Assembly: GCA_022925895.1 (NCBI GenBank) | Contig: JAKSYS010000001.1 | Location: forward strand, 620,001-684,000 | Source of the DNA: Fragilaria crotonensis | Lineage: Eukaryota > Bacillariophyta > Fragilariophyceae > Fragilariales > Fragilariaceae | Reading direction: 5' to 3' | Length of the DNA stretch: 64,000 nt | Part shown: piece by piece, positions 7,785 to 45,277 of the stretch | Position numbering within the stretch: position 1 is the stretch's first letter | Layout: every line of letters begins with the position of its first letter | Translations under genes and position numbers: made by a program | Notes under the pieces: generated by a model | The model's database searches: none | The model's input: only the letters and a program-made list of their open reading frames with translations | Told to the model about the DNA's origin: nothing

Positions 7785-9449
7785 TCACTGGTTGTCATAC
7801 GTGAGGACCGGTCCAACGTCTTCCTTATCGAACGAGGCTGCATTCTTGTTGAATCGGGGTTCCTTGTCGCAAACACCGGGTCCGATGGGACCTGCATTGA
7901 TACCCCTCCGCACCATGTGACATCGAAAGGCGGTCATACGTTCTCGGATGGTAGTCTCGTCACTTGCCGTGCTGCCACTCCACAATCGTTCTGCCATGGA
8001 GGATGCCCGGGGCCATACACGGCTCATAAAGTTGGAACTATCCACTCGTTCTCCCCACATACTAGCATGTCCTCCCAGTACACGCTCGTATTGTGCATCG
8101 GTGGTTCCGCCGGTTGCGTTGAGTTTATCACGAGGATCACATTGATAGTACTGATACCAATCATTGTCGAGATGATCCAAGTACCAACAACTGGACAAGA
8201 CAACACGATGACCAGCCGCAATGGCACGATGCATGGTATCCGCATCTTGATCTTGTTTCCAAACGTCCACAATGGTGTTTGGAGAAATGTGCACGCCCAA
8301 ATCAAAAACTTCTTGCCAGACAATAGGTTGTCTGGTCTCAACAATTGCAAGCAATGCTTCTTCAAAGAGTCCAAAGAGCATGATTTCGTCCGTCACATTG
8401 TGTATTCTCATCCAGTGTTGAATGGCAGGATCATTCTTCCAACACTCCAATGGCACTTCATCACCTCCCAAATGGATCATGTCCGCAGTGGTAAACAGCG
8501 TGAAAATTTCAGCATACAAGTCTTTGATAAAGTGATGAACGTCCCTATTGGTCGGATCTAAAATGGGTAGTATTGGTGGTTCCGAGTTGTTGTCATCATG
8601 AGTACAGTGGGACATCCATTCGGGATGTGATTTGGCCAATGCTGCAGAATGGCCGGGCAAATCAAATTCGGGAATGACGCGAATACCTCGATAATATGCT
8701 TCACGAACCAAGCGTTCAATGTTCTCTTTCGAATATACCAAATCAGATCGAAAGGCACCCTTGTCCGATAACTCAGGATATTGCTGACTTTGATATGGCC
8801 ACGATTGACTGTCTGTCATGTGCCAATGCAACACATTGAGCTTATTGATTGCCATGGCGTCAAGATTAGTCAACAAGAGTTCCATGGGGAGATAATGACG
8901 TGCCGTGTCGATCAATAGGCCACGGTAGGGATAGGATGGTGCATCTTCAATGTACTGAGGTGTCGATAGAGTAAAGATGACTTGTCCAGTATTAACTTCA
9001 ATCCAACCATACTGAATAAGTTGTGCAAAGGTTTCTAATCCTCGAAGCGCACCAAAGACTGTCTTGCTTTGGAGAGTAACAGAAGAATTCGTTGGGATGG
9101 TAAGTACGTAGGACTCATCAACGCCATGTATCAAGTCAGTGCAATTGGATTCTACAAGCACATAAAGTTGACAAAGTGAAATCAATTCCTTCCCCGATGG
9201 ATTCACGGGGTAATTCATAAAGACATCTGGAAGACGAAACCAATCGGATATGCGTTTCGCGGCACCTTGAAGGATGTAGGGACTGTCTGTGACTAGTTCA
9301 AAATCACCCGTTTGAATGGTTCGCAAATAGGCTGATGATGCAGTCTGGTTCCAGACCTTGGGATGAGGTACCAGAGCATCAGCTGGTGGGAACAACAACA
9401 GAGCGATAAGGATGGCAATGCGGGCCAGGGACGCGACGATGCTCGTCAT
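7785..9449 (-). CDS. beta-N-acetylhexosaminidase, GH20 family, secretory
   Basis: The 554-residue protein is taken from the ATG at 9449, which opens directly into a signal peptide (MTSIVASLARIAILIALLLF, cleavage near ADA-L). An ATG 14 codons upstream is less likely. Residues ~50-170 are the GH20 N-terminal domain (NCTDL, DESYVL, FGALRGLETFAQL). The catalytic barrel follows from RGLLIDTARHY, through LHWHMTDSQSWPYQ and IPEFDLPGHS. HLGGDEV carries the neighbouring Asp-Glu pair (D330/E331) that performs substrate-assisted catalysis in this family, and the C-terminal SSMAERLWS motif is typical. It removes terminal GlcNAc or GalNAc from glycans. In diatoms the substrates could be N-glycans or chitin oligomers, in a lysosome/vacuole-like compartment or outside the cell (inference). 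Confidence 0.95.
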   Translation of the reverse strand: MTSIVASLARIAILIALLLFPPADALVPHPKVWNQTASSAYLRTIQTGDFELVTDSPYILQGAAKRISDWFRLPDVFMNYPVNPSGKELISLCQLYVLVESNCTDLIHGVDESYVLTIPTNSSVTLQSKTVFGALRGLETFAQLIQYGWIEVNTGQVIFTLSTPQYIEDAPSYPYRGLLIDTARHYLPMELLLTNLDAMAINKLNVLHWHMTDSQSWPYQSQQYPELSDKGAFRSDLVYSKENIERLVREAYYRGIRVIPEFDLPGHSAALAKSHPEWMSHCTHDDNNSEPPILPILDPTNRDVHHFIKDLYAEIFTLFTTADMIHLGGDEVPLECWKNDPAIQHWMRIHNVTDEIMLFGLFEEALLAIVETRQPIVWQEVFDLGVHISPNTIVDVWKQDQDADTMHRAIAAGHRVVLSSCWYLDHLDNDWYQYYQCDPRDKLNATGGTTDAQYERVLGGHASMWGERVDSSNFMSRVWPRASSMAERLWSGSTASDETTIRERMTAFRCHMVRRGINAGPIGPGVCDKEPRFNKNAASFDKEDVGPVLTYDNQ

Positions 9450-9667
9450 TTCATGTTTCGTTTGTTGTTCCTTAATCTGATCACTGATCACTGATTACAG
9501 TACCGGTACGCGAACTAAAATGCAACCTGTTTGCTACGACAGTACTCAGTGTTTACTGTACTAAAAAAAAACAGTGCACGCTACTTGTACTGGTACTGTA
9601 CCACCTGGAAATTCAACATGCTCATGTCGTTGCAAAGGACGACAAATTACCGGTAGCAGATCACAAA

Positions 9668-11230
9668 TCACATTTGATACTGAGAACTCATGAAGAAGCG
9701 ATTCAATTTTTGCATGGATGCTCGTGAGGGACTGGCCATTTCTCGATATTGTTGTACCAAATGAAGGGCAACACGAAGTGTTTCTTTCGTGGCCAAATCA
9801 TGGTCTTGGGGCAGATGGAGCTCATTCCGTAGCCATGTTAGGATGCAATCACGACCAGGTCGACCAAGAAGTGCACTAACAAGTCCTTGTGATAAACCAG
9901 AATGAAGAAAGAGTGGATCATCGTTGTCGACAGCATCCCCTAACGCCAAAGTTCTGAGACTAGCGTGTGTAAGGGCCTCGACATTGTGTACAAACTGAAT
10001 TGGATGTTTCAAATCACATAAAAGCGTTATGCATGCCATTGCAATTGCCACCGATCGATCCCTGCCTTGAGCACAATGGATAAGAATGCGACTGTTTCGA
10101 TGTAAAGTTACAAATGCAATTCCAACTGGCAACCATCGTTCCAGTTCGGAACGATCTCGCTTTCCTTCTTGCACCGGAAGTTGAAGATAATACTTTCCAT
10201 CAGGTAATGCCTCTTTCATATCGTCGTACTCCACATCTGTTACGGCGAGAACAGCATCGAAGGTGTTCCAACAATCCGGTGGGCGGCCGGCTCGCCGAGA
10301 ACCAATGCAAATTCCAGTGTCTCCAATGGCATCGTAGCACGATTCATTGCAAAGTGCATCATCATCATCATGGTGATGAGGATAATTATCGATGCTTTGA
10401 TTCTGCGCAACGATGGAATCAATGGCACCGATACAATCAGGAGCATCGAGAATGTCATCCACGTTTTTCCAAAATAAATTCGGAGTGAGCTTGCGCGCCC
10501 ACGATTCGTCGTCATCTCCAGCGCCAGGGATGTAGTCAAAATCAAGTGTTTCGGGGATTGGAGATGAAAGAGTAGAGCACGACATGCAAATGACTGCGAA
10601 ATAGGCATCATCAATGTCCAACAGTTCTTCAGTGTCCATTCCTCGATCTGGAGTGATCCAATAGGGTCTTAATGGTTTGACAAGTGTCTCGACAAGCCTT
10701 CGAGGATTGACAATGGCGCCACTGGCGTAGAGGGACTCGACTCGATCGTCCAGCAATGTGCATATTGCTACATGTTCTTCCTCGGTAACGAGCCATGATG
10801 GAGTGTAGAGCGTTGTATCCCAATCCAAGAGAGGTGGTAACTGCATGTCGTGCCGATACTTGGCAACCACACGATTCATGACACAGGTCCAAATCGGAAT
10901 GGTTCGAGAGAGACTATCAGGAAGCTCCTTTCGCACGGATGAATCCAAAATTAAACACCCACCGGCTTGTGATTTGGCAACAATATTGACAATGGGAAGA
11001 TTCAAACGTTTCAATGAAAAATTCCATGTCCCGACATGGCCATCCGTAGATTTGAAGTAGCAACTGGAAGTCGACCTGGAACGTGGTGATGTGAGAAATC
11101 TTGGAGCATACCATGTTCCACAACGCTCATTGGCAACCACAGGGTATTGTTGGAGTTTCTGCAGTACGGGCTTGACATGCTCTTCTACATCATATTGGAT
11201 TGAGAGCAATCGGTTGCGAACATCCGTCAT
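9668..11230 (-). CDS. RIT1: initiator tRNA 2'-O-ribosyl phosphate transferase (Rit1)
   Basis: A 520-residue single-exon protein. Rit1 modifies position 64 of initiator tRNA-Met by adding a 2'-O-ribosyl phosphate, which bars it from elongation in yeast and plants. The N-terminal Rit1 block is clear: CGTWYAPRF, YFKSTDGHVGTWNFSLKRLN, GGCLILDSSVRKELPDS and TIPIWTCVMNR. The C-terminal half has the DUSP-like domain with a CX5R signature in HCAQGRDRSVAIAMA (C386, R392), as in the fungal enzyme. An Asp/His-rich insertion lies at ~280-300. A divergent gene starts at 11623, so the 390-bp spacer probably carries both promoters and includes a perfect palindrome at 11337-11358. Confidence 0.9.
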   Translation of the reverse strand: MTDVRNRLLSIQYDVEEHVKPVLQKLQQYPVVANERCGTWYAPRFLTSPRSRSTSSCYFKSTDGHVGTWNFSLKRLNLPIVNIVAKSQAGGCLILDSSVRKELPDSLSRTIPIWTCVMNRVVAKYRHDMQLPPLLDWDTTLYTPSWLVTEEEHVAICTLLDDRVESLYASGAIVNPRRLVETLVKPLRPYWITPDRGMDTEELLDIDDAYFAVICMSCSTLSSPIPETLDFDYIPGAGDDDESWARKLTPNLFWKNVDDILDAPDCIGAIDSIVAQNQSIDNYPHHHDDDDALCNESCYDAIGDTGICIGSRRAGRPPDCWNTFDAVLAVTDVEYDDMKEALPDGKYYLQLPVQEGKRDRSELERWLPVGIAFVTLHRNSRILIHCAQGRDRSVAIAMACITLLCDLKHPIQFVHNVEALTHASLRTLALGDAVDNDDPLFLHSGLSQGLVSALLGRPGRDCILTWLRNELHLPQDHDLATKETLRVALHLVQQYREMASPSRASMQKLNRFFMSSQYQM

Positions 11231-11622
11231 ATGTCATCTCTATTCAACATGCAGCGGCAGAGATATTTGCGTCTGTTGTGTGTTGGGTGTTGGGTGGCCT
11301 ATGGCAGATATCATCGAGACCGGTGATGGGGTTAATGGTTAACGGAGGTCCGTTAACCCTATTAAGGTGTCTAGAATTGGGAGGTTATTCACTACCGGTA
11401 GTGGGCTACTGGTACTGAGGACTGGATGTGAAACGTACTGTGGTGGAGAGTTGAGACATGAACATCTCATCGGCGATGGTTCCAGTCAATGGGGGATGCA
11501 TTTCCATTCCAAGGGAAGCAGCAGGCAGCGGCCATACATTACATTCATACGAGGGTGATCTTAAATCCCACCCCGTCGTCGTAGAGTGGCTGTACGCTAT
11601 TCACTCTACCGATAGCAGTACC
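11231..11622. promoter_or_regulatory. divergent intergenic promoter region with 22-bp perfect palindrome
   Basis: Spacer between the starts of RIT1 (minus) and the gene at 11623 (plus). At 11337-11358 there is a perfect inverted repeat, two 10-bp arms (GGTTAACGGA) around GG, about 107 bp upstream of the RIT1 ATG. Each arm contains AACGG, the core of MYB-type recognition sites. A dimeric regulator site is inference. A GTAC/CTAC-rich segment follows it. Confidence 0.4.
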
Positions 11623-12099
11623 ATGGTCCTTCTGCTGCTATTCCTCCTATGCCTTGGTGGTTGCGTCCGTTCCAATGGTTTCCTACCGACTTGTCCGCCA
11701 TCCCCCGCAGAATATCGAGCGTCCCCACTCTCCATGGGACGACGAAGCTTTGGAACCAAACCGAAAATTCGTGTCGATGCCAAGATTGATTTTTCCAATT
11801 TTTGGTTACGATCAGTTGCAAATTTCACAGTGTGTGAACGACCATCACGTGATCCGGATTACACATCGTGGTCCGGTAGTCTCTATTGGAATCAAGGTGA
11901 TCATCTTATCCGACTGTCGGATCATTGGACTGGACAATTTGGAGTTGGTCCCATCCGGGAATGTCAATGGTATTTGCACCAGGATGAGCGGAACCTACCG
12001 AATATTAATGTGGTGGCCAAGTGTGACTACTCAGAATTCCAAATGATCAAAACGAACTCCATGAAGAAACGTAAGAAATGGTCGACGCGAAAGACTTGA
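11623..12099 (+). CDS. hypothetical secreted or plastid-targeted protein
   Basis: The 158-residue protein starts at the ATG at 11623, which begins a strong signal peptide (MVLLLLFLLCLGGCVRSNG). The open frame extends back to 11458, but that part lacks this pattern. The residue after the probable cleavage is Phe (SNG-FLPT), resembling the diatom ASAF-type presequence that directs proteins through the plastid ER to the plastid. The mature part is hydrophilic with many Trp/Tyr (SWSGSLYWNQGDHL, CQWYLHQDERN) and a basic end (MKKRKKWSTRKT). I recognise no family. An overlapping frame at 11654-12046 is a shadow. The gene is convergent with the E2 gene downstream. Confidence 0.6.
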   Translation: MVLLLLFLLCLGGCVRSNGFLPTCPPSPAEYRASPLSMGRRSFGTKPKIRVDAKIDFSNFWLRSVANFTVCERPSRDPDYTSWSGSLYWNQGDHLIRLSDHWTGQFGVGPIRECQWYLHQDERNLPNINVVAKCDYSEFQMIKTNSMKKRKKWSTRKT

Positions 12100-12434
12100 A
12101 TTACTTCTTGCAATCTTGCAAACCATGCGTGTACCTTTATGGCACGTCGGCATGTCGACTGACTCTGAGCCCAACGCTATCAACCAACCTGTAGTCCGAA
12201 GGGAACTTTTCCCTCGCTATTATATAGAGCTCATATTTTGCTCGCTTGTCGAACAGGAGTCAGAATGGACAAGTCCAACTATTTCTTTTCCACTTTCCAT
12301 TTCAAAATGTAATGTTCACAAAGCATGTGGGCTCAACTCTCTCGAAAAATACATCTCTAAAGTTAAGATAATCCTATTTGCACATCTCGGTCAATGCCAT
12401 CGCCTAAAAGTGTCGGTCCGGGTCGTAGCATCTC
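12100..12434. other. convergent intergenic spacer
   Basis: The 3' flanks of two convergent genes. No further gene or clear terminator structure is seen. Confidence 0.4.
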
Positions 12435-13400
12435 CTACAACCGACGCAATGACTTTTTCTTCGTTTTATCAACAACCTTGACGGGATTGGTGGAACTAGA
12501 AGATCGATTGACTGCCTTGAGCGATCGATCTCCGGCGGATGGGATAGTATTAGCAGGGCGGCATCCTTCGTTCTCTTCTTCCGCTGACTTGTCCCCTTTC
12601 AACGCATCCAGCAGTATGGGCCGTCCATGTATATCTGCCATGAGCCTTGCTCGCTTCGCGTACTCTTGGTACGACTCCATGAACAACTTTCCAGCTTCAT
12701 CATTCAAACTAGACTCAGGAAATGGCACAATCAGTAAGCATCTTATGACACTCAATACGTGGCTAAATGTCGTGTCGGCAGTCCAATCTTTCTTTAGTGT
12801 GTTGACACAAATGGCTCCGTTTGTCATGTCCACATTTGGGTGGTAAATTTTAGTCAGAAAGTGACCTTTGGGAGGTGCAGCAGGATAATCTGACGAAAGA
12901 ACCAACTTCAGTTGAAAGCATTTACCCTCATAAGGCGTGCCGATTGGACCTTCAATCTCAGCCTGATAAACACATGATGTGATGATGAGGAGAGGGAAAA
13001 AGTGTATGATGGCAAAAATATGAGAACGAGCGTACAGTTCGGCGAATTTTAGACAGACGTGAATACATTTTATGTTAGGACGAGTATGGAGGGATGTATA
13101 GTAAAACGCCCAACGGAATCAAACGACCGATACACATGAAAGAAATCGATCTGACCCACGATTTTCGAACCACCATGTCAAGAAATCAAATTTCAAACTC
13201 ACCATGAGCTCGCCCAACGAACCACCGCTGTCTCCATCAAAGGTAAGTTTGATTCCTTCTGGAGTATTTTTGTGCAGATCTCTAACTTCTCTCGCGATTC
13301 GTGCAAGTGTTCGAGGAGGTAAATTTTCACTGGAACTGCCACTGGAGGCACTTCGAGAGTATTGACGCTGCATGGAACCGCTGGCTGTTGCAATCGACAT
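12435..13400 (-). CDS. UBE2S: ubiquitin-conjugating enzyme E2 S-like, one intron
   Basis: Exons are 13400-13203 and 12962-12435, about 241 residues. The intron starts GTGAGT, ends TTATCAG and is phase 0, restoring the E2 core exactly (GELM then [14 protein letters not shown]). The E2 fold is complete: [12 protein letters not shown] helix 1, [13 protein letters not shown], the HPN motif in KIYHPNV, then NGAICVN with catalytic Cys ~118 and [19 protein letters not shown] matches the UBE2S subfamily. In animals UBE2S extends Lys11-linked ubiquitin chains on substrates of the anaphase-promoting complex and docks through a basic tail ending in LRRL. This protein ends [10 protein letters not shown] after a disordered linker, so the docking tail is conserved. 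The N-terminal ~28 residues are Ser-rich. It probably drives mitotic protein turnover (family knowledge). Confidence 0.9.
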
Positions 13401-14508
13401 TGTCGTGGAGTAAACGATATGGAGGAGTGATCACTATCTGGGAACGTGGTGGGATTGTTGTGTTGCCTTTGATGTGATGTGTGATGCTTCAGTGGACAAG
13501 TTTGTGTTCGATATCGTGGTGCGTTTGTTCGAAGGAAGATTATTCGCTGAAAACCGTTACTGGTAATATGTGGTTATAAGTTGTCCATTCTCATTCTACA
13601 GTGTACCAGAGTACACCGTACACCAGTGTACAGTGCGACAGTCCATGATGTTTCACCCGTTGTACAGTACTCAGTACTTGGAATATCGGTAGACCAGTTT
13701 TCATTGAACAGACTTGATTCCGACTTGAGGTTCCTCATTCCTTAGCAAAATCTTAGCTCCGGGTTTCAAACTGGAAAACCATGCGTCACGTACTTGTACC
13801 ACATTCGTAAATACGTACTCAGCCTAGACAAGGAATGGAATACGTACGAGATATCTGGTCCTCGCGCTTTGCACATCGCATGCATGGGGAAGTTTTTCCT
13901 GAAAACGTTTCACCTCGTTTCTACCAGTGCCGATAACGAAGTCATTGAAACCATTTGGACACAATAGGAGTGAGTTGATCGCGATTCGAACTGTCGCTTC
14001 AGAGTGTGAAGCATTTATCGATGCGCTCATTGCCGTTGGTTTTGAAGGTGTCGTCATTCTTCTCATTCTTGACATTGCGTCGCATTTAAGAGATCATTGG
14101 CGTCATTTTCCTGAATTGTGTGAGAAAGATTCCTGTCACGTCTGACGTCAGATAGATGTTTTGGTCCCGGGGGCAATCTGAAATTCCCCCACGTACGTTT
14201 CCTTTTTTCACATCGTCGCCACTCTATCATTAAATGCATTCCAGTTTTCATGGTAGCATATCCATGGCAAGGATTCTGACCTTCTCGTCAAATTTATAGG
14301 TTGGATCAACTCTGAAGGTTACTATAAACACTATCGAAGGATCTCGCAGATGTCGGTGGTTTGACGTTGCTTTGGTAGCGTTAGTGTGACACAGTTGTGG
14401 CCAAGGTTTCTCTTGAAGTCTGAACTAGTTGTTGGTGTAGGGAGCAAGAAACGTGATCGAGGCTGTTGTTGCGAGATTCTTGTTGTCGGACTCCAGGATT
14501 GAGCCAAT
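13401..14508. other. divergent intergenic region
   Basis: Between the divergent E2 and KH genes. It has GTAC-rich clusters near 13600-13690 and short open frames with no recognisable protein. The promoter of the KH gene presumably lies at the right end. Confidence 0.45.
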
Positions 14509-16649
14509 ATGGATGCTAGTCGAGTAAGTTATGCTTGCTTGAAGGTCTTGGTATTGATTCGAACTTCATCCGTCACCATCTTACTCAATTGTTCTTTGTC
14601 ACACTCGCTCACAGGAAGTACCCATAGGAACACAAAACAGACCCCCCTCAGCGAGCACAGAGTACACCACCTCAACATCTGTCCAAAGTCACAGAGTTCA
14701 ACAGAATCCTTATCAATTAAACCAACACTCTGAGCAGCAGAACGAATTCTCTGCGCCTCAACTGTGCGCAACAGCATCCACACCGAGTAGCACTGAAACA
14801 GGATCGAGGTACGTATAATATGCATACAAGTCACCGTGTTCATACTTTCTACATGCGACATGTCATTTCAGACTGCTTCTCTTTCAGTCCCTCCTAAACT
14901 CATATGCTCGACTCTCGTCATAGTGTTCCTTCGGACCAGTCTACCTCATGGCAGCATCACGCTTCACCGCTGGCACCAAATCAAACACAAACAGTTGGGA
15001 GTCCCTCTGGGCTTTCTGCGCCTGACCTGGTCCATGACCAAGGCGTCGCCGATTCTCAAAACTCTGCTGCAGGTTTTACAGCTGCGATCAAACTGATAGT
15101 GTCCAACAATGTGGCTGGTTCCATTATCGGACGATCTGGGCAGACTATATCAGACCTTCAAACGCAATCGGGGACTCGGATAAAGTTGAGCCAAGCCGAC
15201 GATTACTATCCCGGGACTCAAGACCGCGTGTGCTTAGTGCAAGGCCATCCAGACAACGTGAAAAGAGCACTCAATCTGTTACTGACTAGACTCTTTGCTC
15301 TACAACAGCAGCAACACTCGCATCACTTCGCATGGCAAAGACAACAACAAGAACGAGGACTTGGGCATGAAGGCATGTACAACATTTCAGATAGCATTCT
15401 GTCTACAACTGCCATTCCTGGATTCTCCTTTGTGGTCCGAATCCTCGTACCTGTCCCTTGCTGTGGAATGATCATCGGAAAGGGAGGCGCCAACATCAAA
15501 CAAATGGTGGATGCCTCTGGAGTTACAGCAGTAAGACTATCTCCCAAGGAAGGCGGAGATCCTGACAGCCCTTACACTGCTGCGCCGCCATCCCGTGCAA
15601 CCTCGGCTCTTGTCATTGCAACCGCAGAACGCATGGTCAGTGTCACTGGGCCCGATCTCAAAAGCTGCTTGAAGTGTTTGCACATCATATTGGATGGGAT
15701 GACGTCGCATCCCGATATCAGCCGATACGCAAACATGACAACCAGCTATTCAAGGGTCATGTCCTCAACTCAGAATACTTTCCCGGGACCACAAGCTGGC
15801 ATTGCCGGCACTCAAAGGCTTGATCAAGGAATGGATCCCTTTTTGGGAGGTCATGATGACTTTTTTCCTCTGCATCGATCTCCATCGTACAGCTACCTTG
15901 ATCGACAGTCACTAACACCATCTCCGCATGTGGGTATACCCCCTTCACCAACGCCATCGAACATAGATTCAATGGGACGGTATGTTGCCTTTGGAGGGCA
16001 TGCTATGCCGTTCTTGCCTCAAGAAAGTCCTTCACGACCTCCGCTCCAACAAATGCAGAACTCTATCTACATGCTGCCAACCAACAACAGGGCTTCGTTT
16101 CAGCTGAGTCCTTCCGCCAATGAATCCCTCCGAATACCGCCGAGTCATTCGGCCCCAGATCTACTGGCGATCCACATGCAAAACTCTCTCAGAGTTTCAG
16201 ATCATCCAGAAGCAAGGACAAGGACTGTCTCCTACTCAGAAGCCCCACCATCTTTTGTTCATCAGCTCCCTCAACAATCTCATTCACCCCCTGGGTTTGT
16301 GGCTCAAGTGGCAATACCCGAAAATTTGATTGGTTCCATTCTCGGTCGAGGAGGTCGCACACTGACTGAGTTGCAGGCGCTCTCCGACACTCGCATTCGC
16401 ATCACGCAACGAGGCGAGTACCTGCCGGGAACCAAGAGCCGGGTTGTAACGATACGGGGCGCGACTTCGCAAGCCGTATCGAATGCCCAATATCTAATGA
16501 ACCAACATTTGGTGTTACCGCCATCGGCTTCGTCGTATCCTGCGGCTTCTGTTGCTGCACCGACAGCGGAGCGAGCAGAGTACGGTGCTACGCCGTATCC
16601 TCATGTAGAGTTCCCAGGACCGAATGTGGATCAGCATCCACCATCATGA
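14509..16649 (+). CDS. triple KH-domain RNA-binding protein (PCBP/Nova-like), two introns proposed
   Basis: Proposed exons are 14509-14523, 14615-14808 and 14924-16649, about 644 residues. The introns begin GTAAGT and GTACGT and end ACAG and ATAG, and phases agree so that a Gln/Ser-rich N-terminal exon reads into the main frame. A shorter form starting at the ATG at 14904 (581 residues) is the alternative. Three type-I KH domains are clear from their GxxG loops. KH1 starts near AIKLIVSNNVAGSIIGRSG, KH2 near VRILVPVPCCGMIIGKGG (the loop is followed by a longer insertion), and KH3 near AQVAIPENLIGSILGRGG. A ~215-residue disordered Pro/Ser/Gln-rich spacer separates KH2 and KH3, the same layout as poly(C)-binding and Nova proteins. 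These bind single-stranded pyrimidine-rich RNA and control splicing, stability or translation. The target here is unknown. Confidence 0.85.
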
Positions 16650-16831
16650 TCATCACAAGCACACCGTCTGCCCTACTCACACGGCCGATCAATAACTAAT
16701 TAATAGACGCTATCATACCATACACACTCAAAAATATGATTGACATTATCGTGCTAATCGAGAAACATGCGTCATTGGCATGGCTTGAACTCTCTCCATT
16801 TTACTCTACTATAGTCAGACTAGAACGTCAT

Positions 16832-17443
16832 TTATAACTCCTCTTCCTCGTCGTCCTCGCGAGCATGCGCGGCTCCGTAAGTGAGCAAGAGCTGCTCTGT
16901 TTTACTACTTTTGGTCATTTCGATGCATCGATTCCCATCCCCTGCCTCCAAATCCGGGTCCACTCCAAGCTTGAGCAAATACTCGACCGCTTCTGTATGT
17001 CCGGCCGTCTTTCCCCAGCAGGCTCTATGGAAGGGATAGAATCCATCGTCATGTTCATCTGTCACAACATCAATACCATGTTCCTTGAGAATCTTGAGAA
17101 TCGCGGCATGTCCCGCAAAGGCGGCACCGTGGGCGGGTGTGTATCCGTCCTTTTCGGCAATCGTCACGTCGGCGCCGCGGTCCAATAGGAATTGTACAAT
17201 GTCGGCTTTTCCACGTAAAATGGCGGCCATGAGTGGAGTTTGGCCGGATCGGACATCGACAATGTTAATGTCCGCACCAGCATTCAAGGCAGTGCGGACC
17301 TGGTTCATGGTGTAGGGATCATTTTCACTACGTTTGGGATTCATGCAGGCTGATAGGAGACGAGCCTCGGGGACGGTTTCATCGGCATTGATGAACGTGA
17401 GAGAAAGGAGTAGTGATACGAGGGTGGGAAGGAGGTTCTTCAT
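16832..17443 (-). CDS. ankyrin-repeat protein with signal peptide
   Basis: A 203-residue single-exon protein. It begins with a signal peptide (MKNLLPTLVSLLLSLTFINA), unusual for ankyrin proteins, which are mostly cytosolic. Four to five ankyrin repeats follow: RSGQTPLMAAILRGKADIVQFLLDRG, DGYTPAHGAAFAGHAAILKILKEHG, DGFYPFHRACWGKTAGHTEAVEYLL, and a degenerate last repeat. The C-terminus is a Glu/Asp run ending EEEEL. This resembles but is not a canonical K/HDEL retention signal, so ER-lumen retention is only a possibility. Ankyrin repeats mediate protein-protein contacts and the partner is unknown. The gene is convergent with the KH gene (about 180 bp between stops). Confidence 0.85.
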   Translation of the reverse strand: MKNLLPTLVSLLLSLTFINADETVPEARLLSACMNPKRSENDPYTMNQVRTALNAGADINIVDVRSGQTPLMAAILRGKADIVQFLLDRGADVTIAEKDGYTPAHGAAFAGHAAILKILKEHGIDVVTDEHDDGFYPFHRACWGKTAGHTEAVEYLLKLGVDPDLEAGDGNRCIEMTKSSKTEQLLLTYGAAHAREDDEEEEL

Positions 17444-18396: not shown

Positions 18397-20649
18397 ATGG
18401 CACCAAAGGCACCCAAAAAGATATACCCAAGAAAGACCTTTGCCTACGACAATGTAGAGCCAAAACCAGCGACAGAGCCGCCTCTGCCAACATCAGATGC
18501 GGCTCGCAATCATGTCCCGAATCCATACGTTAACAGCAAATTGACTCATGAGAAGATCGCTGCCATCCGAGCCAAGGCTACCATCCAAAACCAGGAATTG
18601 GATTATGCACAGCCTTCAGATCTCTACCCAGAGTCATTCCCACACTTTGTTCGAGGTCGCGACTCGGCGCGGGAGTATATCACTAGCCTTTTCACCAGTC
18701 AAATCGCCATCTACGATGGCGCCATGGGCACGATGATCCAGAACTATGCCAAGAGGAACAAACTGGACGAGGAGGAGTATCGCGGCGAGCGCTTCAAGGA
18801 CTGGACATGCAACGTGAAGGGCAACAACGACATGCTGTCCATCAGCCAGCCGCACATCATCAGTGGAATCTACAAGGAATACCTCGAGGTGGGTGGATCC
18901 AACTTGATCGGAACGAACACGTTCTCGTCGACGACCATTGCCATGGCGGACTACGAGATGGAGGCGTATGCGTACGAGTTGAACTATGTTGGTGCTCGGC
19001 TGGCGCGTGAGGCGTGCGACGAGGTGACTGCTCGTGACCCCACCAAGCCGCGCTTCGTGGTGGGCGCCCTTGGCCCGACGAACCGCACGGGCAGTATCAG
19101 TCCCAGTGTGGAGGATCCCAGTGCTCGCAACGTGACGTTTGACGAGTTGGTCGATACGTACCTGGAGCAGGCAGTGGGTTTGATTGACGGTGGAGCGGAC
19201 ATCTTGATGGTGGAGACCATCTTCGACACATTGAATGCGAAGGCGGCGTTGTATGCGATTGGCGAGTTTTTGGAGTTCAGTGGTCTGGACATTCCCGTGT
19301 TTGTGAGTGGTACCTTGGTGGACCAATCTGGACGTACACTGTCTGGTCAGACGGGCGAGGCGTTCTATGCGTCGATCCGTCACGCCAAGCCGATGTGTGT
19401 TGGCCTGAACTGCGCCCTGGGTGCTCAGCACATGGTTCCGTTTGTGGAGCGTCTGGCGAACGTGGTTGAGTGTTTCCTGCATGTGTACAGTAACGCGGGT
19501 CTGCCGAACGCCATGGGCGGGTACGACGATACGCCCGAAACGATGGCGCAACACAACAAGGTGTTTTTCGAGAAGGGCTGGCTGAACATGGTGGGTGGTT
19601 GTTGTGGTTCGACACCTCCTCACATCAAGGCGATCCGCGAGATGTCTGCGAACTACAAGCCTCGCAAGCTTCCAGACGTGGGTCGTCCGAAGATGTGGCT
19701 GTCAGGTCTTGAGGATCTGGTCGTTGAGGACGTGCACAACCAGCACGGCATGCCGTTCTTGAACGTGGGTGAGCGATGCAACCTGAGCGGTTCGATTAAG
19801 TTCAAGAAGCTCATGATGGCTGGTGACTTTGGAACTGCCATGGATATTGCCAAGAAACAAGTGGAGGATGGAGCACACGTGATTGACATCAATGTCGACG
19901 ACGGTATGCTTGATGGACTCGCGGCGATGCAGAAGTTTGTGAAGATCGCCGTAACTGAGCCTGAGATCGCGAAGGTTCCGTTCATGTTGGACGCGTCGAA
20001 GTTCGACATTGTTTTGGCAGGGTTGAAGTGGTGCCAAGGGAAGTGCATCATCAATTCGATCTCGTTGAAGGTCGGCGAGGAGCTGTTCAAGGAGCAGGCG
20101 ACATTGCTGAAGAAGCATGGAGCAGCCGTCGTTGTGATGGCTTTCGACGAGGAAGGTCAGGCGGCGACAGAGGATGAAAAGCTACGCATCTGTAAGCGCA
20201 GCTATGACATTCTTGTGAACGAGGTCCGGTTTCCTCCTGAGGATATCATCTTTGACCCCAACGTGTTGACGATCGGCACTGGTTTGGAGGAGCACAACAA
20301 CTATGCGGTTGACTTTATCAATGCCACTCGACGAATTAAGGAAGAGTGTCCCTATGTGAAGATCTCTGGTGGTATCAGCAACTTGTCGTTCGGCTTCCGC
20401 GGCGTTACAAAGATTCGCGAATCGATTCACTCAGTGTTCTTGCACCATGCCATTTTGGAGGCTGGTATGGATGTGGGTATAGTGAATGCGAAAGAACTGA
20501 TGGCGATTGACGAGTTGGAGGACGACATGCGTGTATTGTGCGAGAATTTGGTATTTAATAAGACTGAAGATGCGACGGAGGACATGTTGCAACGAACTGC
20601 ATACGAACGCGCGTATGCCGATGCGAAGAAGAAGGGACTGCCGTTGCCT
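18397..20649 (+). repeat. 2,253-bp tandem unit, copy 1 (Hcy + pterin domains of metH)
   Basis: Codons 1-751. It starts with its own leader ([19 protein letters not shown]), which aligns with the PRKPRVKP...FPYD linker that opens copies 2 and 3. Synonymous variants in the homocysteine domain set it apart from copies 2 and 3. Confidence 0.95.
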
Positions 20650-23600
20650 CGTAAACCGAGAGTGAAGCCGGTTAATAGGCCGCGATTGACATTTCCGTAC
20701 GATCACATACCCCCGAAACTAGCGACAGAGCCACCTCTTCCGTCGTCGGATGCAGCTCGCAATCATGTTCCGAATCCTTATGCAAACAGCAAACTGACGC
20801 ACGAGAAGATTGCTGCCATCCGAGCCAAGGCTACCATCCAAAACCAAGAACTGGATTATGCACAGCCGTCAGACCTCTACCCAGAGTCATACCCACACTT
20901 TGTTCGCGGTCGCGACTCGGTGCGGGAGTATATCACTAGCTTGTTCACAAGTCAAATCGCCATCTACGATGGTGCCATGGGCACGATGATCCAAAACTAT
21001 GCCAAGAGGAACAAACTGGACGAGGAGGAGTATCGCGGCGAGCGCTTCAAGGACTGGACATGCAACGTGAAGGGCAACAACGACATGCTGTCCATCAGCC
21101 AGCCGCACATCATCAGTGGAATCTACAAGGAATACCTCGAGGTGGGTGGATCCAACTTGATCGGAACGAACACGTTCTCGTCGACGACCATTGCCATGGC
21201 GGACTACGAGATGGAGGCGTATGCGTACGAGTTGAACTATGTTGGTGCTCGGCTGGCGCGTGAGGCGTGCGACGAGGTGACGGCTCGTGACCCCACGAAA
21301 CCGCGCTTCGTGGTGGGTGCCCTTGGCCCGACGAACCGCACGGGCAGTATCAGTCCCAGTGTGGAGGATCCCAGTGCTCGCAACGTGACGTTTGACGAGT
21401 TGGTCGATACGTATCTGGAGCAGGCAGTGGGTTTGATTGACGGTGGAGCGGACATCTTGATGGTGGAGACCATCTTCGACACATTGAATGCGAAGGCTGC
21501 GTTGTATGCGATTGGCGAGTTTTTGGAGTTCAGCGGTCTGGACATTCCTGTGTTTGTGAGTGGTACCTTGGTGGACCAATCTGGACGTACACTTTCTGGT
21601 CAGACGGGCGAGGCGTTCTATGCGTCGATCCGTCACGCCAAGCCGATGTGTGTTGGCCTGAACTGCGCCCTGGGTGCTCAGCACATGGTTCCGTTTGTGG
21701 AGCGTCTGGCGAATGTGGTTGAGTGTTTCCTGCATGTGTACAGTAACGCGGGTCTGCCGAACGCCATGGGCGGGTACGACGATACGCCCGAAACGATGGC
21801 GCAACACAACAAGGTGTTTTTCGAGAAGGGCTGGCTGAACATGGTGGGTGGTTGTTGTGGTTCGACACCTCCTCACATCAAGGCGATCCGCGAGATGTCT
21901 GCGAACTACAAGCCTCGCAAGCTTCCAGACGTGGGTCGTCCGAAGATGTGGCTGTCGGGTCTTGAGGATCTGGTCGTTGAGGACGTGCACAACCAGCACG
22001 GTATGCCATTCTTGAACGTGGGTGAGCGATGCAACCTGAGCGGTTCGATTAAGTTCAAGAAGCTCATGATGGCTGGTGACTTTGGAACTGCCATGGATAT
22101 TGCCAAGAAACAAGTGGAGGATGGAGCACACGTGATTGACATCAACGTCGACGACGGTATGCTTGATGGACTCGCGGCGATGCAGAAGTTTGTGAAGATC
22201 GCCGTAACTGAGCCTGAGATCGCGAAGGTTCCGTTCATGTTGGACGCGTCGAAGTTCGACATTGTTTTGGCAGGGTTGAAGTGGTGCCAAGGGAAGTGCA
22301 TCATCAATTCGATCTCGTTGAAGGTCGGCGAGGAGCTGTTCAAGGAGCAGGCGACATTGCTGAAGAAGCATGGAGCTGCTGTCGTTGTGATGGCTTTCGA
22401 CGAGGAAGGTCAGGCGGCGACAGAGGATGAAAAGCTACGCATCTGTAAGCGCAGCTATGACATTCTTGTGAACGAGGTCCGGTTTCCTCCTGAGGATATC
22501 ATCTTTGACCCCAACGTGTTGACGATCGGCACCGGGATGGAAGAGCACAACAACTATGCGGTTGACTTTATCAATGCCACTCGACGAATTAAGGAAGAGT
22601 GTCCCTATGTGAAGATTTCTGGTGGTATTAGCAACTTGTCGTTCGGCTTCCGCGGTGTGACCAAGATTCGTGAATCGATTCACTCAGTGTTCTTACATCA
22701 TGCCATCTTGGAGGCTGGTATGGATGTGGGTATAGTGAATGCGAAAGAACTGATGGCGATTGACGAGTTGGAGGACGACATGCGTGTATTGTGCGAGAAT
22801 TTGGTATTTAATAAGACTGAAGATGCGACGGAGGACATGTTGCAACGAACTGCATACGAACGCGCGTATGCCGATGCCAAGAAGAAGGGACTGCCTTTGC
22901 CACGAAAACCAAGAGCCAAGCCCGTTAACATTCCGCGATTGACCTTTCCATATGATCTGGTTCCGTCTAAACCTGCAGCGGAGCCACCGCTTCCGTCATC
23001 GGATGCAGCTCGCAATCATGTTCCGAATCCATATGCGAACAGCAAATTGACGCACGAGAAGATTGCTGCCATCCGAGCCAAGGCTACCATCCAAAATCAG
23101 GAATTGGATTATGCACAGCCTTCAGACCTCTACGCAGAGTCATTCCCACACTTTGTTCGCGGTCGCGACTCGGTGCGGGAGTATATCACTAGCCTTTTCA
23201 CCAGTCAAATCGCCATCTACGATGGTGCCATGGGTACCATGATCCAGAACTATGCCAAGAGGAACAAACTGGACGAGGAGGAGTATCGCGGCGAGCGCTT
23301 CAAGGACTGGACATGCAACGTGAAGGGCAACAACGACATGCTGTCCATCAGCCAGCCGCACATCATCAGTGGAATCTACAAGGAATACCTCGAGGTGGGT
23401 GGATCCAACTTGATCGGAACGAACACGTTCTCGTCGACGACCATTGCCATGGCGGACTACGAGATGGAGGCGTATGCGTACGAGTTGAACTATGTTGGTG
23501 CTCGGCTGGCGCGTGAGGCGTGCGACGAGGTGACGGCTCGTGACCCCACGAAACCGCGCTTCGTGGTGGGTGCCCTTGGCCCGACGAACCGCACGGGCAG

Positions 23601-26600
23601 TATCAGTCCCAGTGTGGAGGATCCCAGTGCTCGCAACGTGACGTTTGACGAGTTGGTCGATACGTATCTGGAGCAGGCAGTGGGTTTGATTGATGGTGGA
23701 GCGGACATCTTGATGGTGGAGACCATCTTCGACACATTGAATGCGAAGGCTGCGTTGTATGCGATTGGCGAGTTTTTGGAGTTCAGCGGTCTGGACATTC
23801 CTGTGTTTGTGAGTGGTACCTTGGTGGACCAATCTGGACGTACACTTTCTGGTCAGACGGGCGAGGCGTTCTATGCGTCGATCCGTCACGCCAAGCCGAT
23901 GTGTGTTGGCCTGAACTGCGCCCTGGGTGCTCAGCACATGGTTCCGTTTGTGGAGCGTCTGGCGAATGTGGTTGAGTGTTTCCTGCATGTGTACAGTAAC
24001 GCGGGTCTGCCGAACGCCATGGGCGGGTACGACGATACGCCCGAAACGATGGCGCAACACAACAAGGTGTTTTTCGAGAAGGGCTGGCTGAACATGGTGG
24101 GTGGTTGTTGTGGTTCGACACCTCCTCACATCAAGGCGATCCGCGAGATGTCTGCGAACTACAAGCCTCGCAAGCTTCCAGACGTGGGTCGTCCGAAGAT
24201 GTGGCTGTCGGGTCTTGAGGATCTGGTCGTTGAGGACGTGCACAACCAGCACGGCATGCCATTCTTGAACGTGGGTGAGCGATGCAACCTGAGCGGTTCG
24301 ATCAAGTTCAAGAAGCTCATGATGGCTGGTGACTATGGATCGGCCATGGATATTGCCAAGAAACAAGTGGAGGATGGAGCACACGTGATTGACATCAACG
24401 TCGATGACGGTTTGCTGGACGGTCTCGCCGTGATGCAGAAGTTTGTGAAGATCGCCGTAACTGAGCCTGAGATCGCGAAGGTTCCGTTCATGTTGGACGC
24501 GTCGAAGTTCGACATTGTTTTGGCAGGGTTGAAGTGGTGCCAAGGGAAGTGCATCATCAATTCGATCTCGTTGAAGGTCGGCGAGGAGTTGTTCAAAGAG
24601 CAGGCGACGTTGCTGAAGAAGCATGGAGCTGCTGTCGTTGTGATGGCGTTCGACGAGGAAGGCCAGGCCGCGACAGAGGATGAGAAAGTCCGAATTTGTA
24701 AGCGCAGCTATGACATTCTTGTGAACGAGGTCCGCTTTCCTCCTGAGGATATCATCTTTGATCCCAACGTGTTGACGATCGGCACTGGTTTGGAGGAGCA
24801 CAACAACTATGGCGTTGACTTTATTAATGCTACGAAGAGAATCAAGGAAGAATGTCCCTTTGTGAAGATCTCTGGTGGTATCAGCAACTTGTCGTTCGGC
24901 TTCCGCGGTGTGACCAAGATTCGTGAATCGATTCACTCAGTGTTCTTACACCATGCCATCTTGGAGGCTGGTATGGACGTGGGTATTGTGAATGCGTTGG
25001 AGTTGCTCAGCATTGATGAGCTGGACCCTGAATTGAGAGAAGCCAGCGAGAACCTCGTGTTGAACAAAACGGATAATGCGACAGAAGTTATGTTGGATTT
25101 GACCACTCGTGAGAAGGCTGCTATTGAGCAACGCAAGAAAGGAGGTAATGTTGTCGAGGCTAAGGAGGCTTCCTGGAGAGATTTTGACGCTATCAAGCGC
25201 CTCGAGCACGCTCTGGTGAATGGCATCTCTGAATTTGTTGATCAGGATGTCGAGGAAGCCAGGGCCCAAGCTGAGAAGCCGCTTGACGTGATCGAAGGGC
25301 CCCTTATGGATGGTATGAATGTAGTCGGGGATCTCTTTGGTTCCGGTAAGATGTTCTTGCCTCAAGTCATCAAATCCGCACGAGTTATGAAAAAGGCCGT
25401 CGCGTATTTGCTCCCCTTCATGGAGAAAGAAAAGAAACTAGCCATGGTCGCCGCTGGACTTAATCCTGATGACTTTGATGAGAATGATGACTCTAACTAC
25501 GCAGGCAAGGTTCTTATGGCCACTGTGAAGGGTGATGTTCATGACATTGGCAAAAATATTGTTGCCGTCGTGTTAGGATGCAACAATTACAAGGTCTATG
25601 ACATCGGTGTTATGTGCTCGTGCGAGAAGATCTTGGAAAAGGCGAAAGAGTACAATGTTGATGTCATTGGCTTGTCAGGACTGATCACTCCATCGCTCGA
25701 TGAGATGGTAGTCGTTGCCAAGGAACTGGCCAAGGGTGGTTTCAAACAGCCGTTGCTGATTGGTGGTGCGACCACTTCCAAAATGCACACTGCTGTGAAG
25801 ATTGCTCCAAATTACTTCACCATGGAACATCCCGCAATTCACGTTCTTGATGCATCAAGATCCGTTACGGTTGTTTCATCCCTGTTGAGTCATTTGAAGG
25901 AGGAGTTTGTCACCGACATTATGGAAGAGTACGAAGAAATGCGCGAGGACTATTATGCTGGACTAGAGGATCGCTACTTCTTGACCTTTGAGAAAGCTAA
26001 GGATGCCAAGTTCAAGATCGACTTTGACGCAAGTCCACCGGCGCCAGCACCGAAGCACATGGGAGTTTCTCTGATTGACTCGGTCAAGGTTTCAGATATT
26101 ATTCCTTATATTGATTGGAATCCGTTCTTCCAGACGTGGGAACTGCGAGGGCGTTATCCTAATCGTGGTTACCCCAAAATCTTCAATGACGAGGCCGTGG
26201 GAAGTGAGGCTAAGAAGCTCTTTAACGACGCTCAAACCATGTTGAATGAGATCGCCGCGAGTGGGACCATGTGGCTGAAGGGTGTTGTTGGGCTTTTCCC
26301 AGCCAATCGCAGTGCGGACGGAGAAGATGTTAACGTCTTCGAATCCGAAAAAGATCGCGAGGAGGGCAAAATCTTGGCAACGTACTGTATGTTGCGCCAG
26401 CAAGCCGAGAAGGAAAGCGAAGATCCCTACCTGAGTCAGGCTGATTTTATCGCTCCAACTGGGTACAAGGATCACCTCGGCATGTTTGCAGTTGCTTGCT
26501 TCGGCTGCGACAAATTAGTCGAGAAGTATGAATCCGAGAATGATGACTACTCCAAGATTATGGCCCAAGCCTTGGCCGATCGTTTCGTGGAAGCTTTTGC

Positions 26601-26985
26601 CGAATACTTGCATCGCGACATTCGCACCAACCTCTGGGGCTATGCCGCAAACGAGTCGTTGACAGAAGAGGATTTGCTGAAGATCAAATACGATGGAATC
26701 CGTCCGGCGCCTGGATACCCCTCCCAACCGGATCACACGGAAAAGACCACCATGTGGAGCACTATCAAGGCGAAGGAATTGGCAGGTATGGAATTGAGTG
26801 AATCTCTCTCCATGTTGCCAGCCTCGTCAGTGTCTGCCTTGGTGTTCGCTCATCCTGAGTCTCAGTACTTTGCTGTGGGACAAATTGGGAAGGATCAAGT
26901 TCAGAGTTATGCCAACCGAAAGAAGATGGAACTTGGTGCGATCGAACGATGGCTGTCGCCAATCCTTAATTACGAACGCGACTAG
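18397..26985 (+). CDS. metH: cobalamin-dependent methionine synthase with triplicated homocysteine/pterin half
   Basis: One continuous 2,862-codon frame without stops or introns, against ~1,230-1,360 residues for normal MetH. MetH transfers a methyl group from methyltetrahydrofolate via B12 to homocysteine. The N-terminal module of homocysteine-binding and pterin-binding domains occurs three times with an exact period of 751 residues. Each copy keeps the zinc cysteines (GLNCALGA and VGGCCGS: C339/C402/C403 in copy 1, +751 and +1502 in the others) and the pterin-site motifs ([26 protein letters not shown]). Only copy 3 continues into the helical cap (~2250-2350), the B12 domain with DVHDIGKN (axial His 2382) and the AdoMet-dependent activation domain ([27 protein letters not shown]). 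Copies 1 and 2 end in a shared ~45-residue linker. All nine zinc cysteines being intact argues against decay. No plastid or mitochondrial presequence is evident. Confidence 0.93.
20650..22902 (+). repeat. 2,253-bp tandem unit, copy 2
   Basis: Codons 752-1502. It resembles copy 3 at variant sites in the homocysteine domain and copy 1 in the pterin domain and C-terminal linker ([28 protein letters not shown]), so it is a mosaic. It carries a private variant TGMEEHN where the others have TGLEEHN. Confidence 0.95.
22903..25110 (+). repeat. 2.2-kb tandem unit, copy 3 (joins the B12 half)
   Basis: Codons from 1503. The Hcy part is nearly identical to copy 2. The pterin part differs from the other two (for example DYGSAMD against DFGTAMD, and [10 protein letters not shown] against [10 protein letters not shown]). 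Its linker ([29 protein letters not shown]) diverges and leads into the single cap/B12/activation half. Copy 3 is therefore the likely ancestral position. Confidence 0.92.
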
Positions 26986-39873: not shown

Positions 39874-42800
39874 ATGCCCACCATTCGCTTTAACCTCACC
39901 AAAGCCGACAAGAAGTCGAAGAAGAAGGACTCGTCCCCCTTTCTTGCCTCCGAAACGGAGCCTCCAGTCGTCATCAGCGCAGATGTCAACATTCCTGCCG
40001 CTACTCCCACCCATCCCACCCTCTATCTAACTCGCTCTAAGAGAGCCGAAACATTGGGCAACACTAACACTAACATTAAGCAGAAGCGCTACGTTAAGAC
40101 TAGCGCCAAGGGCACCACCAAATCCGACATCGATGAAGCGGCCATCCTCGCCGAGGCCATCGAACGCGCCAACTCCGAGCGCAATCCACCTTCCCGCGCC
40201 ACCAGAAACCATCCAACAGCTGCAACTTTCTCCCAGGGCATCCTTACTACTCCTATTGGACGCAATTATTCTACCAGGGCCACCGAAACCGACGACGACG
40301 ACAACGATGAAGCGGCTAGCAACGCCGAGGCCATCGATAGCGCAACTGCAGAGCGCTCAAACACTCATAAAGTCATGAGAATCAAAGAGGAATACACACC
40401 AGACATGCAGGGCACTCACCATCCTTCCCCTATTCGCAGCTACCAACCCCAGACAGACTTATTCGACGAAAGCGACGTCGACGACGACGACCAAGATGAC
40501 GACTACAGCGTTCGCAGTGACGACGACCGCAAGATTCCAGCTCCCACCCGCCCAAAATCAACCAGGAAGCGACAATTCGATGACTCAGACGTCCCTGCCT
40601 CTTCCCCTGATGCTTCCCCTGCGAAAAGGATGCGTTTTCAGACGCAAAAACAGCCCGAGATCCGTTATAAAACCCGCCAATATGTTCGTGAATGTGGAAG
40701 TCAACAAATCAATTTCGTTGGGCGTTCGGACCTTCACACGACAAAAAGTAAAGTCAGAAACTCCTCCGGCGCTCCAAGACCTGCAAAAAGAGCTCCCACT
40801 TACGAAAATCGGAGCGACCAATCCGGAGATATCGCCGCTCAAAACGACCCCATGGCGAACCCCCATTTCCCAATTTCCGACCACGACCATGATCGTGGTG
40901 ATTCGCACCATCAGCTCCCAAGAGTCCTGGACTTGGGACACATTGGACCCCCGCGCCGAACTGCCAATGACATTTCTACGACGATCGTACAGATCTCTTT
41001 CAGTACTGCAGCTGCGACATTTGGCAGCCCGTCCGTCCATATTTTTCCCCATAACGCAAACGTCATCTTGCGTCCGACCGGTTTTGAAATCCTACCCACG
41101 CCTATCCGTCCGCGCGCGCCAACACCGCCTTCTGACGTCCCCTCTCCTAATTACCAACGTCCAATTCGTGACCAACCTAACGGCCATGCTCGTGTTCCTA
41201 ATTACAACGGCGATCCCGTGGACGATGACGAAATGACTGACGCGTCTGACGACATTCCAGCGCGCTCCACGACCAACATTTATCGCGATGACGATATGGA
41301 TGACGATGACGACGACGATAGTGACGTAGTTAATGCTTCAAGTGTCTTCTCCATCTACTGCCCGTGTCCCAAACAATTATGCCTTTCCGTTCGCGACCAG
41401 ACACTGCCGCCCACCAAAGCACAAAAAGCTCCCGCCGCTGACGTTGAAGTTGAAGAACAAAGCAACGGCGACAAAAAGGAATCTCCAAAACAACTTGATG
41501 CACTCCCAATGATTCAAAACTCTACCTACTCAGTCCCAGATTCCTCAGACAATGATGACAGCACAGACACCAGCTCATTTATCCCAGATTCCTTCACAGT
41601 TAAAACTTTGGATTCCCTAACTCTCATGGACAGGATGACAACCAGAAAAGCTACCAAAAATATAAAAATGACGAAAAATATTCCAAGACCAGCAAGGCCT
41701 CTACCCCCAACCAAGTCCAAGCAATTTGCAACTCCCATCAATGTTGCCAACCCTTTTTATGTCAAGCCACCCATCAATGCTGCAATCCCATTCACCATTT
41801 CAATTGATGATGATGAAACTGAGACCCCTTCAACTCCTTCAAGCAGAAACAGAACTCAACCATGTGAGGACAATTATTTGAAAACTTTCAACACCCCTGG
41901 ACCCAGGAATCTTGATGCACCACCTTCTCCAGCAATCAGTCTCAATTCAGAACTTTTCAGTCCCTTGTTTTCCAATTTGAGCAGCAGCCATGACAGCACC
42001 TTTGATTGCCTTTCCACATCAACTGGAATCACAGCATTTCTTGACCTATCTGATGATGATGAAACTTTGGAGCTTCCATATCGCCTTGACAAACTGCACA
42101 TCCCTTGCCCTGAAGACAATGTCTTGGACCCAATCCATCATGTCCCCTTCTTGCAACACCATTCTGATTTGGATTCCAGAACCAATCCCCATGCCTCACT
42201 TCTTTTCTATGCTGATGCAACTCTTCAAGATGACATCAATGGGCCAATCACCATGTGCAACCTTCCAACATGTGTTGATTCAAGTATCACAGCTGCAAGC
42301 TTCTGCCTACGTTATATCCAGTCAAATCCAGTCACCAAACAATGCATTCGCGACTTGACGACCGAACATCTTCGCCACCTTATGTGCAACCTTTATCCCA
42401 TTCTCATTGCTGGATCTGACAAAGACCCCAATCAAGAGGAATTCATTCAATGCATCCAACACACTTTCAACAGAACTACCAATTTGGTCATGGACAATCT
42501 TTCTTCTGAGCACAGATCTCAACTCACCAATGGCACCCCATCATTATTTGTATCCCTTTTGAGTGACTATGAACCTGGATCCTTTGGACATGAATGCTCC
42601 CTATCCATCCTTTATGCCTTCAAAATGATGTATCTCATCCACCTTTATATTCAGGGACAAACATCTTCATGCCCTCATCAACCTCCTGAACTTGCTGATA
42701 TCATTCGCAATATCCCAACTTTTGCGACCGCTCTACGACTTTTCCGAACCGAAGTAACTTCAGAGATGTCCCGCGATTCATTATCAAATTCTTCCAAGAT

Positions 42801-45275: not shown

Positions 45276-45277
45276 CT

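Follow-up and report, generated by a model that had tools for sequence, protein, structure and literature searches.

A triple-module cobalamin-dependent methionine synthase in the diatom Fragilaria crotonensis and its multi-module relatives among algae

The metH locus and its genome

The window of this study is the whole stretch of 64,000 nucleotides of Fragilaria crotonensis DNA that was analysed, with a GC content of 47.2%. On its forward strand, positions 18397-26985 were found to form a single open reading frame (ORF) coding for 2,862 amino acids with no internal stop, in which a 300-nt repeat family recurs at successive spacings of 2,253 and 2,253 nt. The Pfam analysis of this protein has shown three S-methyl_trans and three Pterin_bind domains along with one B12 cap, one B12-binding and one activation domain. 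The ORF, the repeat and the Pfam domains all agree with the first-pass annotation, which had placed three 751-residue modules and one cap/B12/activation half in one frame. The features of the gene are as follows.

18397..26985, + strand: whole metH ORF, 2,862 codons (ORF, Pfam)
18397..20649, + strand: module 1, 751 codons, with N-terminal head, homocysteine domain, pterin domain and internal-type tail
18709..19644, + strand: module 1 homocysteine (Zn) domain
19768..20487, + strand: module 1 pterin (methylfolate) domain
20488..20961, + strand: 158-residue link from the module 1 pterin domain to the module 2 homocysteine domain (internal-type tail and head)
20650..22902, + strand: module 2, 751 codons
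20962..21897, + strand: module 2 homocysteine (Zn) domain
22021..22740, + strand: module 2 pterin domain
22741..23214, + strand: 158-residue link from the module 2 pterin domain to the module 3 homocysteine domain
22903..25155, + strand: module 3, 751 codons, with terminal-type tail
23215..24150, + strand: module 3 homocysteine (Zn) domain
24274..24993, + strand: module 3 pterin domain
24994..25188, + strand: terminal-type tail running to the cap
25189..25416, + strand: B12 cap domain
25492..25806, + strand: B12 (cobalamin) binding domain, the sole one in the protein
26089..26931, + strand: activation (AdoMet) domain, the sole Met_synt_B12 match found in the genome

The homocysteine S-methyltransferase domain with its three zinc cysteines and the pterin-binding barrel with its conserved folate-site residues are each present three times, and the B12 cap with the B12 domain and the C-terminal activation domain are each present once. 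The motif NCALG lies at residues 338, 1089 and 1840 and GGCCG at residues 400, 1151 and 1902; all nine zinc cysteines and the pterin-site motifs of the three modules are intact, as had been described earlier. The single GDVHDIGKN contains DxHxxG, which we take to be the cobalt-ligand motif. The protein departs from the canonical layout of one homocysteine and one pterin domain per B12 domain in having three modules, and it carries the tandem modules, internal-type tails and mutually similar cores of the multi-module algal enzymes. Hence, the gene is practically certain to encode a cobalamin-dependent methionine synthase (MetH) with three substrate modules and one B12/activation half, the product being about 310 kDa as roughly estimated from its length. 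An AlphaFold2 model of the region of the link between modules 2 and 3 (710 amino acids, 17 sequences) had a mean pLDDT of 66.8 and a pTM of 0.50, and stretches within residues 301-336 fell below pLDDT 50; such stretches would fit a flexible tether, but the overall quality is too low for the model to be used.

Three long antisense ORFs (329, 494 and 598 aa) on the - strand at window 18634-24936 mirror the coding strand of the modules with the same repeats, and are most likely not genes. In the neighbourhood (window 7785-17443), Pfam has identified a family 20 glycosidase, a Rit1-like initiator-tRNA phosphoribosyl transferase, a three-KH-domain protein and an ankyrin-repeat protein. No B12-related domain was found in any of the 10 window ORFs scanned, four of which had no Pfam match at all. 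At window 39874-49768 four large + strand ORFs lie in a row; two were scanned, the last carrying RVT_2 and SH3_retrovirus and the first no domain, and the run is probably a Copia-like retrotransposon split into several frames.

A six-frame search of the genome (62,107,879 bases in 881 contigs) has detected one methionine-synthase activation domain, that of the window gene, which is therefore the only MetH with a B12 half found in this genome. The N-terminal domain of METE, the only METE domain searched, gave two matches above the cut-off on contig C76 and one weak match. F. crotonensis is thus likely to possess a B12-free METE-type enzyme as well, and therefore B12 may not be strictly required in this diatom.

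Decayed pieces of the MetH homocysteine/pterin region were also observed at seven places in the genome: C534:25341-27329, C619:1997-3905, C259:36117-37847, C246/C498 (99% alike over 9 kb and counted as one place), C9:102515-109239, C193:48629-55353 and C183:53731-60493. Their end sequences are common to one another and to a 0.54-kb copy (C380:10275-10815) that is absent among the MetH matches. The ends are inverted repeats starting GTACAGCTG, and the elements are 0.54 to 6.8 kb long; no 5' end was found in C246/C498. No match to the B12 half of MetH was seen in the decayed elements, and two element ORFs gave no Pfam family above the cut-off (a weak HTH_33, E 0.087). The pieces seem to belong to a family of DNA transposons that has picked up part of MetH. 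In the C259 copy (L009:4044-5183) a pterin domain is followed by an internal-type tail and the head of a further module, so that the donor gene probably had tandem modules by then.

Module divergence, conservation and occurrence in algae

In a gap-free register of 2,253 nt, the DNA identity of the window modules is 95.6% between modules 1 and 2, 92.6% between 2 and 3 and 90.9% between 1 and 3. Over codons 101-697 the synonymous to nonsynonymous differences are 30:1 (modules 1-2), 55.5:8.5 (1-3) and 41.5:9.5 (2-3). The value of dS is low over codons 101-450 (0.057, 0.066 and 0.017 for modules 1-2, 1-3 and 2-3, respectively), higher over codons 561-697 (0.17, 0.47 and 0.43) and reaches 2.0, 2.2 and 0.84 over codons 1-50; in the tail, module 3 is synonymously saturated relative to modules 1 and 2. 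Protein divergence was likewise observed at the module ends, with dN of 0.08-0.31 over codons 1-50 and 0.52 in the module 3 tail. Near-identical centres within diverged edges are the pattern left by repeated gene conversion. Moreover, the third copy is not brand new, because the heads of modules 2 and 3 have diverged (dS 0.84) while their codons 101-450 are alike (0.017). The earlier description of the divergence as overwhelmingly synonymous therefore holds for the core but fails at the module ends. Similarly, the suggestion that all three modules are under selection finds a purifying signal in the core, but low nonsynonymous divergence by itself is no proof that each module is selected, because gene conversion appears to homogenise the cores.

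Relatives were collected with three queries. The full protein matched 264 relatives, of which the best 120 were used, and the best 120 matches were taken from each of two further queries, namely module 3 with the B12 half and the Mesostigma protein P0105. The resulting 244 proteins and the window do not form a random sample, as the queries and length limits favoured long proteins. Multi-module MetHs with two, three or four modules were found in diatoms, other stramenopiles, green algae and dinoflagellates. In this non-random sample, 200 records (window included) have a B12 and activation end: 102 are HPHPCBA, 66 HPCBA and 14 HPHPHPCBA, two have four modules (Haematococcus lacustris P0034 and Bryopsis P0031) and the remainder are partial or odd. 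Three modules were found in Chrysophaeum taylorii, Chlorella sorokiniana, Volvox carteri, Chlamydomonas incerta, Botryococcus (by its identifier prefix Botrbrau), Myrmecia, Trebouxia and the dinoflagellate Polarella glacialis. Two modules were found in Nitzschia inconspicua, Epithemia clementina, the labyrinthulid Hondaea, Chlorella vulgaris, Pedinophyceae sp. and, with names read from identifier prefixes, Mesostigma and Chlorokybus, and two-module ORFs are also recorded among MMETSP transcripts (P0023, P0035).

Two or more full cores are present in 80/121 stramenopile-like and 63/102 green-like records, against one in 41/121 and 39/102, the shares for two or more being biased upward. The recorded copy number varies within Volvox (carteri 3, africanus 3, reticuliferus 2) and Chlorella (sorokiniana 3, vulgaris 2, variabilis 1), where some gene models may be collapsed. 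One-module records exist, including four of Closterium, and not every B12 user is therefore likely to need more than one module. Core identity within one protein is mostly 98-100%, with the exception of module 1 of several green algae, which is 80-95% identical to modules 2 and 3; in short-read or metagenome assemblies such identity may be inflated by consensus across copies.

A bacterial origin of the layout was considered and rejected: the 80 best-matching of 346 bacterial relatives, which their record titles show to be mostly gammaproteobacteria, with other phyla hardly covered, were all one-module (78 HPCBA and two with the H domain on a separate ORF). A scan of IMG/VR gave three pattern matches, none of them a relative.

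The active sites were compared at 21 positions, comprising the zinc cysteines and pterin motifs, the pterin-site positions being chosen partly on our own assumption of which residues matter. All 21 were intact in 169/178 internal, 145/150 terminal, 76/83 single and 9/9 other modules. Zinc cysteines are missing in three of the 178 internal modules, two of them (P0030_m1 and P0091_m1) of 545 and 559 residues compared to 593 in their partners and the third (P0135_m1) of 592 residues with an altered site; gaps in gene models or assemblies are therefore likely. Among the 150 terminal modules, one (P0045_m2) has one zinc cysteine changed to serine. The internal modules are thus as intact at these sites as the terminal ones, which is consistent with use of every module but is no independent proof of it, because conversion alone would keep them intact.

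For the history of the duplication, each module was split into a core and the tail following it. The 150 proteins with an internal and a terminal module were reduced to 131 below 95% core identity, comprising 72 stramenopile-like and 53 green-like proteins (eight of the latter hand-added at 70-72% identity to Mesostigma) and six dinoflagellate-like or unplaced ones, which were left out; a protein's clade was assigned from the identity of its core to the window or to Mesostigma. A pairwise test of 103 proteins of all clades together, later split by clade, gave 99/103 for the core and 79/103 for the tail, with an internal tail as the best foreign tail in 86/103. In the stramenopile-like set, the first core is closest to the last core of the same protein, above all others, in 69/72, whereas the best foreign match of the first tail is an internal tail of another species in 72/72 and beats the protein's own terminal tail in 68/72. 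Trees were built with FastTree, those of the tails being weak at 55 residues or fewer (40 in greens). The stramenopile-like core tree (144 rows) needs 71 position changes and has own pairs as exclusive sisters in 70/72; the tail tree of the same 144 rows needs three changes, compared to a mean of 49.3 and a minimum of 41 in 30 shuffles, and has own sisters in 2/72. In the green-like set the core is closer to its own partner in 52/53 and the tree pairs the cores as sisters in all 53 proteins; an internal tail is the best foreign match in 37/53, and the tails need 22 changes (shuffled minimum 31) with own sisters in 17/53. The trend is the same and weaker, the green tails being partly homogenised too.

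In the stramenopile-like set, tails therefore group by position across species and cores by protein, from which the duplication looks old and the cores look to have been kept alike within each gene. Judged from these sequences, the internal and terminal tails very probably parted once or a very few times, before the sampled stramenopile-like lineages, and there is strong reason to believe that gene conversion (the simplest account) or unequal crossing-over has kept the cores of each gene homogeneous while copy number drifted. A shared linker role could in part make internal tails alike, but it is an unlikely source of so few changes. We hold an old duplication with concerted cores to be highly probable.

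As judged by eye, 23 of the 41 one-core records in the stramenopile-like set show remnants of a further module: either an internal tail or part of a module precedes the core, or the cap follows a tail of the internal type. The N-terminus is clean in 17, and one could not be judged. Nine apparent single-module diatom-like records (P0124, P0125, P0129, P0131, P0134, P0138, P0141, P0147 and P0158) begin with an internal-type tail or linker and are probably truncated multi-module genes, which inflates the database counts of single-module MetH. The Phaeodactylum tricornutum database protein (P0159) has 1,245 amino acids. In the accessible text of a 2015 paper (PMC4523565), the metH of this diatom is noted to contain an in-frame 'intron' of 2,280 nt that codes for another MetH and pterin-binding domain; ESTs are reported for it, and the two-domain form is 'to be verified experimentally'. 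In a literature search covering few subscription papers, repeated MetH modules were found described only in PMC4523565, and the accessible parts of PMC11439496, PMC6451014, PMC10828217, PMC6557843 and PMC12803021 make no mention of them. The earlier remark that no described MetH of this layout was known thus needs correction, since many two- to four-module MetHs are in the databases and the P. tricornutum doubling, going by the available text of PMC4523565, is in print. The layout is not unique to the window, and multi-module MetH records are common among the algae searched. Hence, the finding is real and of wider reach than was first known, and less unique than was claimed.

Possible working of the enzyme and rival explanations

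In an ordinary MetH, the single B12 domain moves successively to the homocysteine, folate and activation domains. In the triple-module enzyme each module could bind homocysteine and methylfolate, and the single B12 domain, on a tether of long links, would take the methyl group from whichever module is loaded, acting in cis across the 158-residue links or on a neighbouring chain. With three modules per B12, binding and release would proceed in parallel and a loaded site would be reached sooner. Such sharing would allow more turnovers per molecule of a vitamin that the alga cannot make, and would pay when B12, rather than protein, is limiting. As far as the sequences can tell, the chance that several working modules share one B12 domain falls slightly short of even.

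The main rival is a neutral tandem array, in which unequal crossing-over and conversion regenerate in-frame units and the extra modules are tolerated but do no extra work. That unequal crossing-over can maintain such arrays without benefit is the strongest counter-argument to a functional role; copy number does vary between congeners (Volvox 3/3/2, Chlorella 3/2/1, some models perhaps being collapsed), homogenisation is a known by-product of tandem repeats, and, since the window units are in frame, gaining or losing one there would do no harm. However, near-identical 2.25-kb units should be lost easily, and the cost of about 750 residues per module would be reasoned to favour loss. Persistence is the strongest argument for function, because a one-step deletion gives the normal enzyme and yet 80/121 stramenopile-like and 63/102 green-like records, in a sample biased upward, keep two or more full cores. 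We consider the neutral array unlikely, although it deserves serious attention. It is improbable that the internal modules are non-catalytic and serve as a substrate store or channel, a folate sensor or an oligomer scaffold. In favour of such a role, there is only one B12 domain, the links are of 158 residues and the B12 domain may fail to reach module 1; against it, the zinc and pterin residues are kept in the internal modules as in the terminal ones, though conversion confounds this comparison.

A similarly slim chance is given to several products, that is, an ordinary single-module MetH and free substrate modules released by splicing or proteolysis. The P. tricornutum gene model does treat one unit as a 2,280-nt intron in the part of PMC4523565 available, and in some one-core records, such as P0145 from a transcriptome and P0159 from P. 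tricornutum, the cap follows a tail of the internal type. On the other hand, the same text reports ESTs of that 'intron', and collapse of near-perfect repeats by assemblers or gene callers would explain such records; traces of another module are carried, as classified by eye, by 23/41 of the stramenopile-like one-core records. In the window, six AG|GT sites are common to all three modules in register, three with GT-purine donors, and no pyrimidine tract was found in the 15 bases before these three sites; among in-register sites of this kind, no evidence was found for the release of modules by splicing that had been proposed for this gene. An assembly artefact is still harder to credit. Tandem repeats are prone to assembly error, but the copies and the flanks of each copy differ in sequence, and multi-module MetHs of other species sit on contigs of 1.2 to 16 Mb (P0084, P0001, P0013, P0031, P0034). 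The published F. crotonensis SAG 28.96 assembly (61.85 Mb, 879 nuclear contigs, 47.40% GC), presumably that of the window, is stated in the accessible portion of PMC9476933 to be built from Nanopore reads of N50 17.8 kb with Illumina polishing, so single reads are long enough to span the 8.6-kb metH gene. Because copies and flanks differ and long reads were presumably used, an artefact is very remote.

A triple-module MetH of old duplication, with concerted cores and a B12 domain shared by the modules, may be taken as the best explanation overall and is, on balance, somewhat favoured. We suggest more tentatively, and with the balance leaning against it, that a B12-sparing MetH exists in much of the algal world, with one scarce cobalamin and two to four identical modules. 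It would have arisen by a duplication before the sampled stramenopile split, and possibly a separate early green one, its modules being kept identical by selection and intragenic conversion and its layout hidden by repeat collapse in gene callers and short-read assemblers.

The availability of B12 influences both the growth of algae and the dependence between algae and bacteria, and MetH is among the main causes of the algal need for this vitamin. If module number sets the turnover per B12, it would be a simple genetic dial for B12 economy which can be read from genomes. The gene is also a clear example of an enzyme with internal concerted evolution, and it gives a warning that a good part of the recorded diatom MetH gene models and transcripts is truncated or collapsed.

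Comparison with known systems

The canonical MetH of structure 9ssp ('Methionine synthase', 1,265 residues), which we take to be the human enzyme, has the same domains in the same order as the window MetH, and its alignment to module 3 with the B12 half covers query residues 89 to 1360 (alignment seen in part). It has one substrate module, whereas the window MetH has three. The metH of P. tricornutum (Phatr2 23399) shares the extra in-frame 2,280-nt unit with homocysteine-type and pterin domains; it differs in having two modules and an intron-bearing gene model, and the breadth of the layout and its mode of evolution are absent from the accessible text (PMC4523565).

Dinoflagellate luciferase, as described in the available part of PMC5029497, similarly has three tandem catalytic domains in one chain, conserved at the centre and more variable towards the ends. 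Each luciferase domain is a complete catalyst, whereas the MetH modules must share one cofactor domain. In PUFA synthase, with its tandem acyl carrier proteins, carrier and catalytic units likewise differ in number within one chain, and the accessible text of PMC5067506 reports that output rises with more carrier domains and that carrier structure matters besides number. PUFA synthase is the mirror image of the enzyme studied here: it has many carriers and one catalytic set, whereas MetH has one carrier and many substrate modules.
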